This document shows, piece by piece, positions 17,731 to 52,037 of a DNA stretch of 64,000 nt. The DNA lies in contig NZ_CP011270.1 of assembly GCF_001610835.1 (NCBI RefSeq), positions 3,924,001-3,988,000 on the forward strand, in the 5' to 3' direction. The notes beneath the pieces were generated by a model. The model made no database searches, was not told the origin of the DNA, and saw only the letters and a list, made by a program, of their open reading frames with translations. The first letter of the stretch is position 1. Each line of letters begins with the position of its first letter. The DNA is from Planctomyces sp. SH-PL14. Lineage in GTDB: Bacteria; Planctomycetota; Planctomycetia; Planctomycetales; Planctomycetaceae. The position numbers and the translations under genes were made by a program.

Positions 17731-19161
17731 ATGCCTCCTTTGTCACGCCGCGACTTCTTCCACTGGGCCACCTCCGGACTCGGCGGAGCCGCACTCGCCT
17801 CCCTCCTCAACACACCCTCCCTCCAAGCCGCCGGCTCGCCCCCCGAAGCCCGAGATCCCTGGCCACACCACCCAGGCAAAGCCCGCCGCGCCATCCACAT
17901 CTGCCTCTGCGGCGGACTCAGCCAGGTCGACTCCTTCGACTACAAACCGACCCTCGAGACCTACCACGGCAAAAAGTTCGGCGGCATCGAGTCCGCCGAC
18001 GTCTTCTTCGGACAGATCGGCCTCCTCCGCCAGAGCGACTGGGCCTTCCGACAACGCGGCGAAGCCGGACTCTGGGTCTCCGAACTCTTCCCCCACCTCG
18101 GCGACGTCGCCGACGAACTGACCATCATCCACTCGATGTTCGCCGAGACATCGAACCACACCCCCGCCACCTTCCAGGAAAACACCGGCTTCCGACTCAA
18201 CGGCTTTCCCACCGCCGGAGCCTGGCTCTCCTACGGTATGGGGGCCGAGACCGAAGACCTCCCCGCCTATGTCGTCATCCCCGACAACCGCGGCATCCCG
18301 GCCGGAGGATCGATCAACTGGAGCAACGGCTTCCTCCCCGCCCGGCATCAGGGAGTCATCCTCCGCAGCCAGGGGAAGGCGGTCGAAGACCTGTTCCCCG
18401 CCCGCGACATCCCCAAAGAGACCGAAGCCGCCTCCCGCGATCTGCTGGCGGCCATGAACCGCGACCACCTCGACCGCCACGACGGAGACGACGCCCTCGC
18501 CGCCCGCATGCGGAGCTACGAACTGGCCGCGCGGATGCAGCTCGCCGTCCCCGAAGTGACCGACCTCGACGGCGAAACCGCCGCGACGCACGCGCTCTAC
18601 GGCCTCGACCGGGACGAAACGCGCGACTTCGGACGGACCTGCCTCCTGACGCGGCGGCTGCTGGAGAAAGGGGTCCGGTTCGTCCAGATGTACTCCGGCG
18701 GCGCGTTCGGCTCGCCGCGGATCAACTGGGACGGACACGAGGACATGAAGCAGAACCACGGCCAGGAGGCGCTACGGATCGACCGGCCGATCGCGGGACT
18801 CCTCCGCGACCTCCGTCAGCGGGGAATGCTCGAAGACACGCTCGTCCTGTTCACGAGCGAGTTCGGACGGACCCCCTTCACGCAGTCCGCCTCAGACGTC
18901 CTGGGCAAAGGCCGCGACCACAACCAGTACGGGTTCACGACCTGGATGGCGGGCGCGGGACTCAAGCACGGAATCGCGTACGGCGCCACCGACGAGATCG
19001 GCTGGAAGGCGGTCGAAAACCAGGTCCACTGGCACGACTTCCACGCGACGGTGCTGCACCTGCTGGGACTCGACCACACGCGGCTGACGTTCTACCACAA
19101 CGGAATCGAACGGCGGCTGACGAACGTGCACGGGGAAGTCGTTCACGGACTGCTGGCGTGA
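17731..19161 (+). CDS. DUF1501 protein with twin-arginine-type leader
   Basis: A 476-residue DUF1501 protein of the sulfatase/alkaline-phosphatase fold superfamily abundant in planctomycetes. The leader has SRRDFFHWATSGLGGAALAS, a twin-arginine export signal with two adjacent arginines. Typical family stretches are seen: ICLCGGLSQVDSFDYKP, VRFVQMYSGGAFG, NWDGHEDMKQNHGQ and LFTSEFGRTPFTQ. Cofactor and substrate are not established for the family. DUF1501 genes normally pair with DUF1549/DUF1553 cytochrome genes; this one stands alone, whereas the second copy at 43144 is in such a cluster. GGAG lies nine bases before the ATG. Confidence 0.92.
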   Translation: MPPLSRRDFFHWATSGLGGAALASLLNTPSLQAAGSPPEARDPWPHHPGKARRAIHICLCGGLSQVDSFDYKPTLETYHGKKFGGIESADVFFGQIGLLRQSDWAFRQRGEAGLWVSELFPHLGDVADELTIIHSMFAETSNHTPATFQENTGFRLNGFPTAGAWLSYGMGAETEDLPAYVVIPDNRGIPAGGSINWSNGFLPARHQGVILRSQGKAVEDLFPARDIPKETEAASRDLLAAMNRDHLDRHDGDDALAARMRSYELAARMQLAVPEVTDLDGETAATHALYGLDRDETRDFGRTCLLTRRLLEKGVRFVQMYSGGAFGSPRINWDGHEDMKQNHGQEALRIDRPIAGLLRDLRQRGMLEDTLVLFTSEFGRTPFTQSASDVLGKGRDHNQYGFTTWMAGAGLKHGIAYGATDEIGWKAVENQVHWHDFHATVLHLLGLDHTRLTFYHNGIERRLTNVHGEVVHGLLA

Positions 19162-19196
19162 CATGACATCAGGCCAAATTCCAAAGGAGCGTCTAC

Positions 19197-20849
19197 TTAG
19201 AACTTCGTCAGCAACGCTCCACCAGTTACGAACGAACCGGCTTCTTCAATGTGATGCGGTTCGATCTGCTCACGATCCTCTAGGTCCGCAATGGTTCGGG
19301 CGACTTTGGCGAGCCGGTCCATCGAGCGTGTCGACAGGCTCGTACTCTCGATGAACCGCTTGTAGCTGGACAATCCATCCGACGTCAGGTCGCAGTACTC
19401 CAAGACATGACCGCCGGGGATCGCTGCGTTACACGGAATCGATGTTCCATTGAAACGCTGATGCTGACGTTGCCGGGCCTTCTCGGTCTGCGCGCGCATG
19501 CGAGCAGAAACACCTTCTTCCGTCGGAGCGAAGCGCTCATCAACGCTGAGTCGATCCATGTCCACTTTCAGATCGATTCGATCAAGGATGGGGCCACTTA
19601 GCTTCTTCTGATACTTGTCAACCTCACCCTTTCGACAAGTGCACTGTGGGGTGCCGAAATAACCGCATGGGCACGGGTTCATCGCGGCGACAAGCGAGAA
19701 TCGACATGGGTAGCTGACCGTGGCGTTGACTCTTGAGATAGTCACTTCACCGGACTCCAGAGGCTGGCGAAGTGCCTCCAGCGTTGAGCCGCTGAATTCC
19801 GCTAACTCATCAAGAAAGAGCACTCCCAAATGAGCCAACGTGATTTCGCCCGGTCTCGCAACACCGCTGCCCCCTCCGACGAGAGACTGCTTCGAAGCGG
19901 AGTGATGTACTGTCCGCATAGGACGACGAGTCACGGCCAGGCCGTCTCGCGACAGGGCGTCGCAGGCGGAGTAGATCTTGGTGAGAAGAACCTTTTCGTC
20001 ATCCTTGAGCCGCGGCAAGATGCCGGCAATAGCACCTGCGATCAGCGACTTGCCCTCACCTGGAGGACCAATCATGAGGAGATTGTGCCCTCCCGATGCG
20101 GCGATCATCGCCGCACGTTTAGCACGGGCCTGTCCGCGGACCTTACCGAAATCCACGGCTCGATCGATTGCATTCTCGAACTCAATTGGCTTCGAGAGAG
20201 CATTCTCCAGCCCCTTCCGTCCTCCAAAAAACTCCACCACCTCTTCCAGCAAAGAAACGGGAAACACGCCGCAACCTTCGTGTCCCGGCTTGGCGAGAAT
20301 CAGAGCGCATTCTTTCTCATTCCCCGTAGGCACAATTAGCTTCTGACCGGGTTTCGCCTCGTAGGCAAGGGACAGCGCGCCAGGCACACGTCGCACCTCG
20401 CCATGGAGGCCCAGTTCCCCCATCAAGAGGTAGTCCCCCTATTTGTGTTCAGCAAGATCCGGTAACAAGCCGGCGGCCTGAAGCATGATGATCGCGAGAG
20501 GAAGATCGAGCCATGTGCCGTCCTTAGGCAGGTCTGCGGGCGCAAGATTGATCAGGATCTCAACCTGCGGCTCGGGAACTCGGAGTTTCGCAAAGGCGCC
20601 GGAGATTCGAGACAGAGCTTCGCGCACGACGCTGCCGGCCATCCCGGAGATCTCTACAGCATTTCTCCAAGGACAAGGCTCGTCGAAAACGGAAACAGCT
20701 CGGGCCTGCAGCTCAATCACTCGTCCTTCGATTCCGAAGACGACTCCGCCATTCAAAGAGTGATCGCGATTCAGTAACTCAAGAAGTTCTCGCTTCGAAA
20801 GAAACGGTCGAAACAAAGTCTTGTTGACTGCCATGGCCCTTGCTCGCAT
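19197..20849 (-). pseudogene. comM: comM (YifB-family AAA+ ATPase) interrupted by an in-frame amber codon
   Basis: A Mg-chelatase-like ComM/YifB protein, the branch-migration helicase of natural transformation. The first 137 codons end AEHK, then TAG (20439-20441), and the same frame continues GDYLLMGELGLHGEV to the normal end at 19197, so one nonsense codon splits it. The downstream part keeps Walker A GPPGEGKS, Walker B LFLDELAEF, the family hallmark NPCPCGYFG and the C-terminal helical domain. An N-terminal extension of about 38 residues precedes the usual GIEGRVIELQ start region. GC content is visibly lower (about 52-58% in sampled lines) than the neighbours, suggesting transfer. ATG at 20834 is an alternative start. 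Readthrough or a sequencing error cannot be excluded. Confidence 0.8.
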
Positions 20850-20945
20850 CAGAAGAGAGTCAGCACCATTGAGAATGGTAAACCAGCGGACTGACCTGTC
20901 TCAAACTGAGCCCGTGGAGGTCGAGACGCCGGTGAACGGAGTTCT

Positions 20946-22247
20946 TCACTCGGTCAGGTTCGGAAGCCCGAGCGTGCGGCCGTAGAGCCGCGTCAGGTCC
21001 GCGCGGTTCATTCCGTAGGCTCGCGTCAGGCTGTCTTCCCACTCGAGACCTTCCTTGATCCCGTTGAAGAAGAGCTTGAACTGCTCCGGGTTGATCTTGA
21101 GCAGGAGCTCCACCATCGAGCTGGCGATCCCGTACTGGTCGCGGTTCAGCCCTTCCAGGTCGTAGAACGGTCCCAGCCGGCCCGCGTTCGTGACCACTTC
21201 CGCCCCCGCCCGCTGGCGGCGGCCGATCTCTCCCGCTTTCCCTTCCTTCGGGACGATCGCCGCCGCGACCCACTCCGCGATCCCCTCATTGACCCAGGTG
21301 GTGACGAAGGTCGAGGTCTTGACCCGATGGATGTAGCCGTGGGCGGTCTCATGGACGAGGACCGCGGCAAAGAAGTCCGGATTCTCTCCCCGATAGCAGG
21401 AGATCGTCACCGCCCCGAGCGTGTTGGCGTGGCAGATCCCCTGGGCGCCGACGGCGTTGGGGTTGTCCATGAACCGCGTCTCGTATTCGTAGAAGTCCCC
21501 CCGGTTCGTGAAACAGACGACCGGACACTTTCCCTGCCAGACATTCGTCCCGGGCTTGATCCCGAACGCCTGCCCCAGGAATTCGTACATCTTGTCGAGG
21601 TGTGCGGTGAACGGAGCGGCCTGGCCGGCCGGCATATCGGTGAAGAAGAGGAAGTACTTCGTTTCGTGAAGCTGCATCGGCAGGCGGCCGAAGTGCTGCC
21701 CCACCTTCTGCAGCTCCTCCTTCTGCTTCGTCGTCTCCTTGCCGATCTCCTCCTGCGAGAGTTCCCCCCAGAACTTGTGATACTGCGTCTTGGCCAGCCG
21801 GCTGCTGATTTCTTCTGTCCGGGCCGCGAGGTCGTCGAGGACGTACATCTTCTGCGTCGGCAGGTAGCTCAGCGGATAGACGACCGACTCCGCCTCGATC
21901 TGAAACACTTTCTCGGCGTTGATCTTCCGCGACGTCTTGCCGTTCAGCAGGACGTCGATCGACCGGAACCGGTCCGCCTGCTTCCCCGTCACGAACTTCT
22001 TGATGACGACGTTCTCTTCCTCGTCGCCGTTTCTCATGAGCAGCTTGACCGTCTGGCCCTGGAGAGCCTTCAGCTGCTCCTCATCGAGGGCGTGCTCGAA
22101 CGCCGCCCGCTCGACCGGGTCCTTCCCGGCCGTGGCGGACGAGAGCGCCAGCGAATTCTGCGCGGACTTCTGCTGACCCTGCGCCCAGAGGGGTGTTCCT
22201 GAGAGACATCCGCACAGCACGAGAGAACCAAGCCAGAAGCGCCGCAT
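20946..22247 (-). CDS. Exported HExxH metallopeptidase-like protein
   Basis: A 433-residue protein with signal peptide MRRFWLGSLVLCGCLSGTPLWA. An N-terminal SH3-like region (about 55-125) with QGQTVKLLMRNGDEEENVV precedes a charged helical linker. The C-terminal half holds HETAH (H299-E300-T-A-H303) followed by NEGIAEW (E321/E325), the arrangement of gluzincin or peptidase-MA-like zinc peptidases and of DUF1570-type planctomycete proteins. The site appears intact, so activity is plausible but unproven. The frame is open 15 codons further upstream; 22247 was chosen because the signal peptide starts there. It is read in the same direction as the broken comM, 96 bp upstream of it. Confidence 0.82.
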   Translation of the reverse strand: MRRFWLGSLVLCGCLSGTPLWAQGQQKSAQNSLALSSATAGKDPVERAAFEHALDEEQLKALQGQTVKLLMRNGDEEENVVIKKFVTGKQADRFRSIDVLLNGKTSRKINAEKVFQIEAESVVYPLSYLPTQKMYVLDDLAARTEEISSRLAKTQYHKFWGELSQEEIGKETTKQKEELQKVGQHFGRLPMQLHETKYFLFFTDMPAGQAAPFTAHLDKMYEFLGQAFGIKPGTNVWQGKCPVVCFTNRGDFYEYETRFMDNPNAVGAQGICHANTLGAVTISCYRGENPDFFAAVLVHETAHGYIHRVKTSTFVTTWVNEGIAEWVAAAIVPKEGKAGEIGRRQRAGAEVVTNAGRLGPFYDLEGLNRDQYGIASSMVELLLKINPEQFKLFFNGIKEGLEWEDSLTRAYGMNRADLTRLYGRTLGLPNLTE

Positions 22248-22497
22248 GAGACCAATCCTAACCGGGCCCGGAAATCGACCGCCCTTCCTCAAACAGCCTA
22301 CCCGCCCTCCGCTGACAATTCGATGTTGCGCGGCTCGGACGGAAGCCCGGAAGAGGCCGGACAGTGATCGTTCGACGGGCGACGTGGCGTTCCGGAGACC
22401 TCAATCGTGGGGCTTTGGACCATAATTCCTTGCCGACAGCCTCTCCGGATCACCGGCATAGCACTTGCCAACGCTGCTTGGGCCGAGGAGGAGTGCA

Positions 22498-27977: not shown

Positions 27978-28658
27978 CTAGAGGCGCTCGACGAGCTCGT
28001 ATTCCCACAGCCCTCCCGGTCCCGTGGCCCGCTCGAAGCGGTAGCGGGCCGCGAGGACGCGGGATGCCTGGAAGCCTTCGCCATCGACCGGGGCGGCGAC
28101 GAACTCCGCTTCGCTGCGGGTGAGGATTTCGAACCGCAGCTCCGTCCCCCGCGCGTCCGCCAGCCAGTACTCCTCGACCCCGGCGTCGAAATACGCCTTG
28201 CGAAGACGCCGGGTGTCCTTGGCGACGGAACTGGGACTGACGACCTCGACGACGAGGTCGGGCGGGCCTTCGATCTCCAGATAGCTCCCGGGCTTTCCGG
28301 CCGCCGCGGGGATGAGCCGTACCCGTCCCGACTCGATGGCCGTGTGGGACACGACCACGACATCCGGCTCGACGCTGAGGTCGATATCGGGGCAGCTTAC
28401 GCGAGTGTTGTCGATGAAGACGTGGCCGACGCGAGTCGCCTTGAGGCGAAACCGGATCACGGCCCCCAGTTCGGTGTTCGGGGCGGAGTGGTAGAACAGG
28501 TTGTCGGGACTGCTGTCCACCTCGATCGATCCGTCGACGTAGTCGATCCGGCCCGATTCCGGAAACTCCTCAGAGAACGCCCACTGGCGAAACGCCGCGA
28601 GCGAGTCGATCCCGTACGGGATGCGAAGCTCGTCTTCGAAGAGAATGCTCGCAGTCAT
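27978..28658 (-). CDS. Uma2-family (DUF820) restriction-endonuclease-like protein
   Basis: A 226-residue Uma2/DUF820 protein with a PD-(D/E)xK nuclease-like fold. Typical stretches: GRIDYVDGSIEVDSSP, the SVEPDVVVVSH strand with the acidic residue, PDLVVEVVSPSS (the E-V-S of the core) and KDTRRLRKAYFDAGVEEYWLAD. The family is expanded in cyanobacteria and planctomycetes and its role is not settled. The ATG at 28658 is preferred over an in-frame GTG three codons upstream. It follows the Nif3 gene in the same direction after 108 bp. Confidence 0.88.
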   Translation of the reverse strand: MTASILFEDELRIPYGIDSLAAFRQWAFSEEFPESGRIDYVDGSIEVDSSPDNLFYHSAPNTELGAVIRFRLKATRVGHVFIDNTRVSCPDIDLSVEPDVVVVSHTAIESGRVRLIPAAAGKPGSYLEIEGPPDLVVEVVSPSSVAKDTRRLRKAYFDAGVEEYWLADARGTELRFEILTRSEAEFVAAPVDGEGFQASRVLAARYRFERATGPGGLWEYELVERL

Positions 28659-28766
28659 GGGCGTCACGCGAAATGGCGGTCTGTTGTCCCCTCGGGATTC
28701 TATCCCGCGCGGAGGACGTGAGCCTACCCGGGAAGCTGGGGTGGCTCCCCCTGGACGTCCGGCTCC

Positions 28767-29636
28767 TTAACCGACCCAGCGAACCGGGTCGGTCTCTTTG
28801 CGGCTGGGCCAGCAGGTGATCTTCGCGAACTTCTCCGCGATCTGGACCGCCAGCCGCTCGACGCCGGGACGCTCGGTGGCGTAGTGGCCGAGCAGGACGA
28901 GCGCCGTCGGACCGGAGCGGGCCTCCAGGCACGCGTGGAACCGGGCTTCTCCCGTGATCAGGACGTCGCATCCCGCCCGGACCGCGTCCGGCAGGAACTC
29001 CGCCCCGCTCCCGCAGGCGATGGCGACCGACTGGACCGGGTAGTTGAGATCCCCCACGACTTTCGCGGCGGGCGCGGAGAGGAGCTTTTTGGCCCGCGCG
29101 ATCAGCTCGCGAAGGGCGATCGGCATGGCCAGCCGGCCGCAGCGTCCCCCGCCGACCGCCCCTTCCGGGTCGATCGCGTGCGGTCGGAGCGGACGGACCT
29201 CTTCCAGCTTGAGACCGGCGGCGATGCTGGCGTTGATCCCCTCCGCCGCGCTGTCGAAGGCGGTGTGCGGCGAATAGACGGCGATCCGCGACTCCATCAG
29301 TTGGAGCAGCATCCGTCCCTCGTCGGTGTCGGAGGTGAGCCGCTTGACCGCGCGGAAGAGGATCGGATGGTGGCAGATGATGAGCTGGGCCTTGTCGTCA
29401 ACCGCCTCCTCGGCCACGTCGGGTGTCAGCGTCAGGCAGGTCATGACGCGGCTGACGGTTCGCTCTCGATCGCCTAGCAGCAGACCCACGTTGTCCCATG
29501 ACTCCGCCAGCTGCAGGGGAGCGAACTGTTCAAGGAAGGTCATGATGTCTTGAACGCGACGCATGCGAGACCGCCCGATTCGAGTCGCCAGGAGAGCAAC
29601 GCCTTCCTGATTGTAATCGGCCTCGCGCAATGACAT
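28767..29636 (-). CDS. Nif3-like dinuclear metal-centre protein
   Basis: A 289-residue Nif3/YbgI-family protein, a cytoplasmic dinuclear-metal toroid protein often annotated as a putative GTP cyclohydrolase 1 type 2 homologue. Visible: ESWDNVGLLLGD near the start, the metal-binding ICHHPILF, YSPHTAFDSAAEGIN, IACGSGAEF and LITGEARFHACLEA, GHYATERPGVE. The far start at 29636 has GAGGAT at good spacing but adds 24 residues before the family N-terminus; ATG 29564 is the alternative. Precise function unknown. Confidence 0.9.
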   Translation of the reverse strand: MSLREADYNQEGVALLATRIGRSRMRRVQDIMTFLEQFAPLQLAESWDNVGLLLGDRERTVSRVMTCLTLTPDVAEEAVDDKAQLIICHHPILFRAVKRLTSDTDEGRMLLQLMESRIAVYSPHTAFDSAAEGINASIAAGLKLEEVRPLRPHAIDPEGAVGGGRCGRLAMPIALRELIARAKKLLSAPAAKVVGDLNYPVQSVAIACGSGAEFLPDAVRAGCDVLITGEARFHACLEARSGPTALVLLGHYATERPGVERLAVQIAEKFAKITCWPSRKETDPVRWVG

Positions 29637-50048: not shown

Positions 50049-52037
50049 ATGCTTCGCACCGCGACCATGGCCTTCCTCACGCTCGCGCTTCCCGCCGCTT
50101 CGCTGCTGGCCCAGGACAAGCCGGCGGAGAAGGTGACGTTCAACGACCACGTCCTGCCGATCTTCCGCGCCCGCTGCGGCTCCTGCCACAACGGGAACGA
50201 CAAGAAGGGTGGGCTGGTGGTCGACAACTACCAGGCGCTCATGACGGGCGGGAGCTCGGGGACGGTCGTCGAAGGGGGAGACGCCGGCTCCAGCTATCTG
50301 TGGAGCCTGATCAATCACGAGTCCGAACCGAAGATGCCGCCGAACGCGGCGAAGCTCCCGGACAACGAGCTGGCGACGATCAAGAAGTGGATCGACGGCG
50401 GGATCCTGGAGACGAGCGGCAGCACCGCCACGATCAAGAAGACGATGTCGGTCGCCAAGATCGAGGTCACCGGGCAGCGGCCGGCGGTCGTCGCCATGCC
50501 GCAGCGGTACCTCGGTGACCCGCAGGTCCAGAGCCCGACCGTCAATGCCGTGACGGCTCTCGCCTGCAGCCCGTGGGCCTCGCTGGGCGCGGTCTCCGGA
50601 CACAAGCAGGTGACCCTCTTCAATACGCAGACGGCGGAAGTCCTCGGCGTCCTTCCCTACCCGGAAGGGCAGCCCCACATCCTCAAGTTCAGCCGCACCG
50701 GAGACCTGCTGCTGGTCGGCGGGGGTCGCGGCGGAGCGGCCGGGAAAGTGGTCGTCTACGACGTCAAGACGGGCGAGCGGAAGATCGAGGTCGGCGACGA
50801 GTACGACGCCGTCCTGGGAGCGGACATCAGCCCCAACCAGCAGCTCATCGCGCTCGGCGGCCCCAAGAAGATCCTCCGCGTCTATTCGACGGCGACCGGG
50901 GAGCTCCTCTTTGAGCAGAAGAAGCACACCGACTGGGTCACGGCGATCGAGTTCAGCCCGGACGGCGTCCTCCTGGCCTCGGGGGACCGGGCCAACGGCT
51001 TGCTCGTGTGGGAGTCCGACACCGGCAAGGAGTTCTACAACCTCGTCGGCCACCAGGGATCGGTCAACGACGTCAGCTGGCGTCCGGACAGCAATGCCCT
51101 GGCCTCGGCTAGCGAAGACAACACGATCCGCCTGTGGGAGATGAACAACGGGACCGAGATCAAGAAGTGGAACGCCCACGGGGGCTGCGCGGCGGTCGAC
51201 TACACCCGCGACGGCCGGCTTGTCTCGACCGGCCGCGACCGGGTCGTCCGGCTGTGGAACGGCGACGGGGGCCAGCTCAAGGAGTTCGGCGGGATGACCG
51301 ACCTGGGGCTCGAGGTCGCCTATGACAACGAGACGAACTTCGTCCTCGGCGGCGATTGGAGCGGGATGGTCCGGATCTGGAACACCGCAGACGGGGCGCT
51401 CCTGCACCAGATCAACACGAACCCGCCGACTCTTGACTCGCAGATCGCGGCCGTCACGCAGGCGATGAACGCGGCCAACGGTCAGGCTGAGCAGCAGGCG
51501 GCGCAGCTGGCGGGCCTCCAGAAGGTGCTGACCGATCGCAAGACGGTCGCCGACCAGGCGACGGCGCAGATGAACGCCGCCAACGAGGCGACGAAGAAGG
51601 CGACGGACGGCAAGACCGCGGCCGAGAAGGCGCTGGCGGAGAAGACCGTTGCGCTCCAGCAGGCCGAGGCGGCCCTGAAGCAGGCGGAGCAGACTCTGGC
51701 GGCGGCTAAGGCGGCCTATGAGAAGGCGATGACCGATCAGCAGACGGTGGCCGTCGCGAAGGATGGCGTCGCCAAGATGACCGCCGACGCCACGACCGTC
51801 ACGCAGCAGGCCCAGGCGGCGGAGAAGCTGGCCCAGGAGAACGCCGCCAAGGCGAAGGCCGCAGCGGACAAGGCGGTCGCCGAAGCGCCCGCGAAGCCGG
51901 AGGAGACGAAGGCGATGCAGGACATCACCGCCGCCCTCCAGACGACCCAGCAGAAGGCGGCGGCGGTCAAGGCCCAGCTCGAACGCCTCAACGCCGCGAA
52001 GGCCCAGGTCGGTGCCCAGGCCTCCGCACAGAAGTAG
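50049..52037 (+). CDS. Cytochrome c (PSCyt1) fused to WD40 propeller and coiled coil
   Basis: A 662-residue exported protein (signal MLRTATMAFLTLALPAASLLA). Residues about 28-120 are a planctomycete cytochrome c domain with the heme motif CGSCH. Residues about 160-460 form WD40 repeats (VTAIEFSPDGVLLASGDRAN, VNDVSWRPDSNALASASEDN, NTIRLWEM, RVVRLWNG). The last 190 residues are a long Ala/Gln/Lys-rich coiled coil. Last gene of the DUF1501 cluster; 118 bp separate it from the DUF1549 gene. Probably a periplasmic electron-transfer or scaffold component. Confidence 0.93.
   Translation: MLRTATMAFLTLALPAASLLAQDKPAEKVTFNDHVLPIFRARCGSCHNGNDKKGGLVVDNYQALMTGGSSGTVVEGGDAGSSYLWSLINHESEPKMPPNAAKLPDNELATIKKWIDGGILETSGSTATIKKTMSVAKIEVTGQRPAVVAMPQRYLGDPQVQSPTVNAVTALACSPWASLGAVSGHKQVTLFNTQTAEVLGVLPYPEGQPHILKFSRTGDLLLVGGGRGGAAGKVVVYDVKTGERKIEVGDEYDAVLGADISPNQQLIALGGPKKILRVYSTATGELLFEQKKHTDWVTAIEFSPDGVLLASGDRANGLLVWESDTGKEFYNLVGHQGSVNDVSWRPDSNALASASEDNTIRLWEMNNGTEIKKWNAHGGCAAVDYTRDGRLVSTGRDRVVRLWNGDGGQLKEFGGMTDLGLEVAYDNETNFVLGGDWSGMVRIWNTADGALLHQINTNPPTLDSQIAAVTQAMNAANGQAEQQAAQLAGLQKVLTDRKTVADQATAQMNAANEATKKATDGKTAAEKALAEKTVALQQAEAALKQAEQTLAAAKAAYEKAMTDQQTVAVAKDGVAKMTADATTVTQQAQAAEKLAQENAAKAKAAADKAVAEAPAKPEETKAMQDITAALQTTQQKAAAVKAQLERLNAAKAQVGAQASAQK

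Follow-up and report, generated by a model that had tools for sequence, protein, structure and literature searches.

What is a comM-like gene with a stop codon inside its frame doing in this genome, and does the interruption matter to the cell? The locus lies in the window, the 64,000-nucleotide stretch of the Planctomyces sp. SH-PL14 genome that was analysed here. A first-pass annotation, made from the sequence alone, had described it as comM split by one amber codon in a low-GC island. We found that the gene is a second, divergent YifB/ComM paralog and not the ordinary (orthologous) comM, and the stop is best explained, with a probability of about 0.74, as a recent nonsense mutation in a second paralog that is dispensable and moves horizontally.

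On the minus strand, positions 20849-19197 form one homologous reading frame that is open except for the TAG at 20439-20441, which reads CTA on the plus strand (Table 1). The residues before the TAG are ...LLPDLAEHK, those after it are GDYLLMGELGLHG..., and the frame closes at a TAA at 19199-19197. Counted from the ATG at 20849 the 5' part has 136 codons, and from an in-frame ATG at 20834 it has 131. The TAG is the sole stop or frame break across the approximately 550 codons of the gene and no second lesion was seen. A scan of the window for same-frame stops, the composition filter of which did not flag TAG 20439-20441, picked out five others, each resembling either the normal end of a gene or a non-coding frame.

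Table 1. Features of the interrupted gene (window coordinates)
Feature	Position	Strand	Description
5' part of second YifB/ComM paralog	20439..20849	-	~30-residue N-terminal extension and first part of Lon-like (ChlI) domain; ends in TAG
In-frame TAG, codon 137	20439..20441	-	Glu in 14/14 full-length relatives
3' part	19197..20438	-	Rest of Lon-like domain, AAA+ (PF01078) and Mg-chelatase C-terminal domain (PF13335); 413 codons + TAA
GPPGEGKS, intact	20046..20069	-	In 3' part, from sequence; taken to be the Walker A motif
LFLDE, intact	19806..19820	-	In 3' part, from sequence; taken to be the Walker B motif
AGGGGG, Shine-Dalgarno-like	20435..20440	-	Overlaps TAG; candidate for restart, judged from sequence
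TTG (20426-20424) and ATG (20423-20421), in frame	20421..20426	-	12 and 15 bases past TAG; putative restart codons

The two pieces were compared with protein family profiles. The N piece matched positions 10-74 of PF13541 (51.2 bits, cut-off 27) and the C piece positions 81-121 of the same profile (23 bits, which alone is under the cut-off of 27), the domain being split by the TAG. The C piece also matched PF01078 (271.3 bits, cut-off 20.3) and PF13335 (85.3 bits, cut-off 26). TIGR00368 was covered from 25-88 by the N piece and from 98-495 by the C piece, which by itself passed the whole-protein cut-off (378.5, cut-off 362.4), while the narrower model PRK09862 was matched at 295.3, below its cut-off of 530. 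As PF13541 and TIGR00368 are each begun by the N piece and continued by the C piece, the two represent one gene with a stop inside it and not a chance adjacency. The translation and these matches bear out the earlier claim that the frame is unchanged on both sides of the TAG, and the sequence and the PF01078 score agree with the claim that the ATPase motifs downstream are intact.

An intact copy in genome G001, 76-79% identical to the window copy, has Legionella pneumophila ComM (8rxd) as its best solved relative (E 1.3e-81). An AlphaFold2 model of this intact relative, made with 14 members in the alignment, had a mean pLDDT of 75.9 and a pTM of 0.72, with poorly predicted stretches between approximately residues 304 and 376. 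When this model was searched with Foldseek, 8rxd ranked first (E 1.1e-32, TM 0.69-0.79) and a Lon-domain entry of L. pneumophila ComM was also matched. The predicted fold of this intact G001 relative is thus that of ComM. In an alignment made with the G001 copy, the stop falls within the Lon-like domain, in a three-residue gap adjoining residue 103 of L. pneumophila ComM.

The genome, a single contig of 8.44 Mb that is rated 100% complete, has two genes that are YifB-type over most of their length, the window copy and an ordinary comM. The latter (G000:C1:4454554-4456089), found on running the proposed check for a second intact comM, contains no stops and is 41-43% identical to the window copy. 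The DprA and ComEC families are also present. In all 16 genomes carrying the paralog, the best match to ordinary comM has no internal stop. A gene tree of the 16 second copies and 15 ordinary copies separated them into two clades (support 100/100), and the window copy falls outside the clade that holds the ordinary comM of this genome and of its relatives. The tree lacks the ordinary copy of G580, which was not retrieved, and the second copy of G580 forms a long branch with a placement that is unsure according to a program warning. The label comM is therefore right as to the YifB/ComM family and wrong as to orthology, the ordinary comM being intact elsewhere and the window gene falling in the second-paralog clade. 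Since the ordinary comM is present without stops, the predicted effect of the loss on natural transformation does not follow, and the functional inference is corrected accordingly: the ordinary comM has not been lost from the genome.

The distribution of the second type was examined in three overlapping searches with strict E-value limits, which could miss more distant members. With the window 3' piece as the query (E-value 1e-100), it was found in 13 of the 397 genomes of the class, own genome included, at an identity of at least 59%. The intact G001 protein (1e-110) detected it in 7/170 genomes of the family, after five of the 12 rows, at 41-44% identity, had been set aside as ordinary copies. 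At the level of the phylum three of 392 genomes carried it, 18 of the 21 rows (41-45% identity) being set aside as ordinary copies by identity alone. In total, 16 distinct genomes have the second type. A scan of genome contigs using six patterns from the G001 protein led to one locus, encoding a protein that agrees with that of G286, a genome of the same family as that of the window. Among the papers searched for YifB in Planctomycetes and for second comM/YifB paralogs, there was no description of a planctomycete clade of second ComM copies.

The first-pass annotation had noted a GC content lower than that of the flanking genes, and this is the case. The GC content of the gene is 56.9% compared with 66.1% for the rest of the window, and its GC3 is 0.615 compared with 0.864 +/- 0.044 (sd; minimum 0.782) across 30 window ORFs, which were picked by a mechanical rule on length and codon-position GC. 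In 100-base steps, the low-GC stretch extends from approximately 19101 to 20900, with single-step dips also at 21001 (0.56) and 21501 (0.59), and the "island" is essentially one gene plus its immediate edges. Elsewhere in the window, positions 51001-52000 show a strong AT skew of 0.369 and by eye encode WD-like repeats followed by an alanine/lysine-rich part resembling a coiled coil. The GC content of the second copy is lower than that of its flanks in 12 of 15 members (window included, G091 left out), with the reverse seen in G378, G290 and G390. Paired with the ordinary comM of its own genome, the second copy has the lower GC3 in 12 of 14 cases (G091 and G580 left out), with the reverse in G043 and G378. 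In the gene trees, the window second copy groups with that of G286 (95/89) and then with that of G001 (100/100), and the window ordinary comM groups with those of G141 and G425 (95/95). This disagreement between the two gene trees, the single one that involves well-supported branches, has moderate support, and a large part of the second-copy tree keeps to family lines. The paralog is patchily distributed and is probably moving horizontally among planctomycetes. The suggestion of a horizontal acquisition is thus supported by the sporadic distribution, the low GC content in most members and the single gene-tree conflict.

The surroundings of the second copies were also compared. An all-against-all comparison of the flanking ORFs at the 16 loci, some of which are on short contigs, found no consistently conserved neighbour. 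Flanking ORFs that we take to be of the DUF1501 type occur in six loci, G290 and G390 have a stretch in common, and a few pairs of loci also share ORFs. An ORF that by eye resembles a response regulator flanks the second copy in G043, G290 and G390. DUF1501 genes are numerous in these bacteria, and for this reason a linked system or operon partner was rejected. An ORF resembling an IS4-type transposase by eye lies near the G001 second copy (L006 / L087). Carriage by a phage or plasmid was likewise rejected, as the protein matches in all 32 phage and 54 plasmid records were below 60% identity. In IMG/VR, nine of 11 loci matched at 36-48%, and there were two short matches, one of 63% over 71 residues at a contig edge (L192) and one of 62% over 34 residues. 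A search for repeats flanking the ends of the gene found only an 8-base inverted match. For the neighbouring gene at 20949-22292, homologs in eight others of 59 genomes show 28-48% identity and are too distant for an empty-site comparison.

The position of the stop is an invariant column in the alignment of the 14 full-length relatives, the glutamate being encoded by GAA in eight and by GAG in six, and none of the 14 has the TAG. Among the genomes examined the TAG is private to the window copy, the other 58 listed genomes all being outside the genus of the window. A fifteenth relative, that of G091, is not included in the 14 and is broken by a one-base frameshift in a G/C run approximately 20 residues downstream of the TAG position; its residue at the window stop position reads as Glu. 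The second copy in G091 (L096 / L135) is on G091:C27, with the 3' piece at 28331-29500, and the shift could be an assembly error in the G/C run.

How long the window copy has carried the stop was assessed from its rate of evolution. For the 3' part, pN was 0.136 between the window and G001, 0.169 between the window and G286 and 0.160 between G001 and G286. The dN values between the window copy and its relatives were similar to those among the relatives, and silent sites were saturated or nearly so. The window end branch (0.18) is the shortest of the trio, followed by G001 (0.22) and G286 (0.28). Under a codon model fitted to 540 codons from six taxa, omega was 0.029 overall and on the background and 0.028 on the window branch. 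The log-likelihood fell by 1.2, 3.0 or 8.8 units when neutral evolution of 0.05, 0.1 or 0.2 substitutions per codon, respectively, was added, and when the pieces were treated separately a neutral stretch of 0.2 cost 2.7 units for the N piece (127 codons) and 4.6 for the C piece (413 codons). In simulations, 0.1 was clearly seen in one of five runs, the test having little power at that level, and 0.3 was seen in five of five, estimated as 0.2. Put cautiously, any period in which the gene evolved without constraint amounts at most to roughly 0.1-0.3 neutral substitutions per codon. The absence of accelerated protein evolution means that the stop is recent, that the gene still works or that the codon is a sequencing error, and the evidence of constraint fits these three equally well. 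The lack of relaxed evolution on the window branch supports the earlier proposal of a recent inactivation.

The possible explanations for the stop must be weighed against these data. That the gene is a long-dead pseudogene, as an in-frame stop might imply, is extremely improbable given the shortest end branch among its closest kin, an omega of approximately 0.03, no second lesion and the codon-model fit. An error of one base in the assembly, leaving the paralog intact, would account for a lone stop with no relaxed selection on either side. It is unlikely in a complete single-contig genome, and a wrongly called base at precisely this kind of site would be rare a priori. Readthrough or suppression of the amber codon to give a full-length protein, an alternative raised by the first-pass annotation, agrees with a frame that continues past the TAG and is constrained before and after it. 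However, the proposed check for amber-suppressor tRNA genes gave it no support: in a search that was not exhaustive, ARAGORN having been run on selected stretches of the genome, none of the 62 tRNA-family hits (60 assigned by ARAGORN and two by eye from sequence and alignment) carried a CUA anticodon. ARAGORN identified four further tRNAs in those stretches (Met, Ser, Tyr, Ser), none with CUA. No PylS match was found in the genome, TAG terminates 9 of the 30 window ORFs, and the TAG is shared by none of the 14 full-length relatives, so readthrough appears highly improbable. The tRNAs include three clusters, L069 (G000:C1:3322272-3325855), L084 (G000:C1:7901239-7902299) and L080 (G000:C1:7884823-7885118), in which several score low against the tRNA model and have anticodons repeated elsewhere in the genome, and which may be tRNA arrays of mobile elements. 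A tRNA-like sequence at L070:51-121 (G000:C1:7921253-7921323) has a six-base anticodon loop and was left unassigned by ARAGORN.

The remaining explanation is that the gene now yields two polypeptides, one a Lon-domain stub that stops at the TAG and the other an AAA+ protein for which translation restarts at the TTG or ATG, with the split tolerated or used. The AGGGGG precedes the TTG by 8 bases and the ATG by 11, and a restart just past the TAG is possible from this spacing; its product would be without much of the Lon-like domain, because the stop adjoins residue 103 of L. pneumophila ComM. Both pieces are under constraint, and G091 is a second member broken nearby. However, the AGGGGG sits in codons for a Glu-Gly-Asp stretch that is seen in 8/14 relatives, and so can be explained without a separate role. 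Of the 15 relatives, 14 are unsplit, and in G091, a genome of approximately 110 contigs, the break changes the length of a G/C run, which would be a usual place for errors. The break is also inside the Lon-like domain and not at the Lon-ATPase linker, which the cryoEM study of L. pneumophila ComM places at residues 170-190 (PMC11612176). In that study the hexamer has two tiers, one of them formed by the Lon domains, and hexamerisation depends on both DNA and ATP, with no driving role for specific Lon contacts (PMC11612176), so a fragment with a truncated Lon domain could conceivably retain activity. Two polypeptides are, on balance, distinctly unlikely. The stronger proposal, that the paralog works as two separately translated chains, one an incomplete Lon scaffold and the other an AAA+ motor made by restart, and that the window stop and the G091 shift are parallel splits of the same stretch, is very unlikely.

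A recent nonsense mutation remains the preferred explanation. A patchily distributed and probably horizontally moving ComM/YifB-type AAA+ helicase paralog would have been interrupted recently by a single nonsense codon in its Lon-like domain. The full-length protein would then not be made, and at most a truncated Lon-domain stub would be produced together with a weakly restarted AAA+ fragment from which much of the Lon-like domain is missing, with the normal function presumably covered by the ordinary comM. We infer that the codon is real, the allele null and the paralog dispensable. The broken copy looks like ordinary gene loss in progress and not a new mechanism. The clade of second copies is mildly interesting and a more useful lead than the broken copy, as a candidate mobile or specialised recombination helicase of planctomycetes.

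The window gene has the same three domains in the same order (PF13541, PF01078 and PF13335) as the ComM/YifB family, which includes the branch-migration helicase of natural transformation. The second copies differ from ordinary ComM/YifB in forming their own clade (100/100), in having an N-terminal extension and in always being found beside an ordinary comM (16/16 genomes), and the window copy differs further in its TAG. The nearest published example of a recently broken comM that we found is that of Acinetobacter baumannii, which is interrupted by inserted AbaR islands with transformation falling approximately 300- to 1000-fold (PMC7508600). In both cases a comM-type gene appears to have been broken recently with little decay since, but in A. 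baumannii the cause is an island inserted in comM, whereas the window gene is a spare paralog broken by a single nonsense codon.
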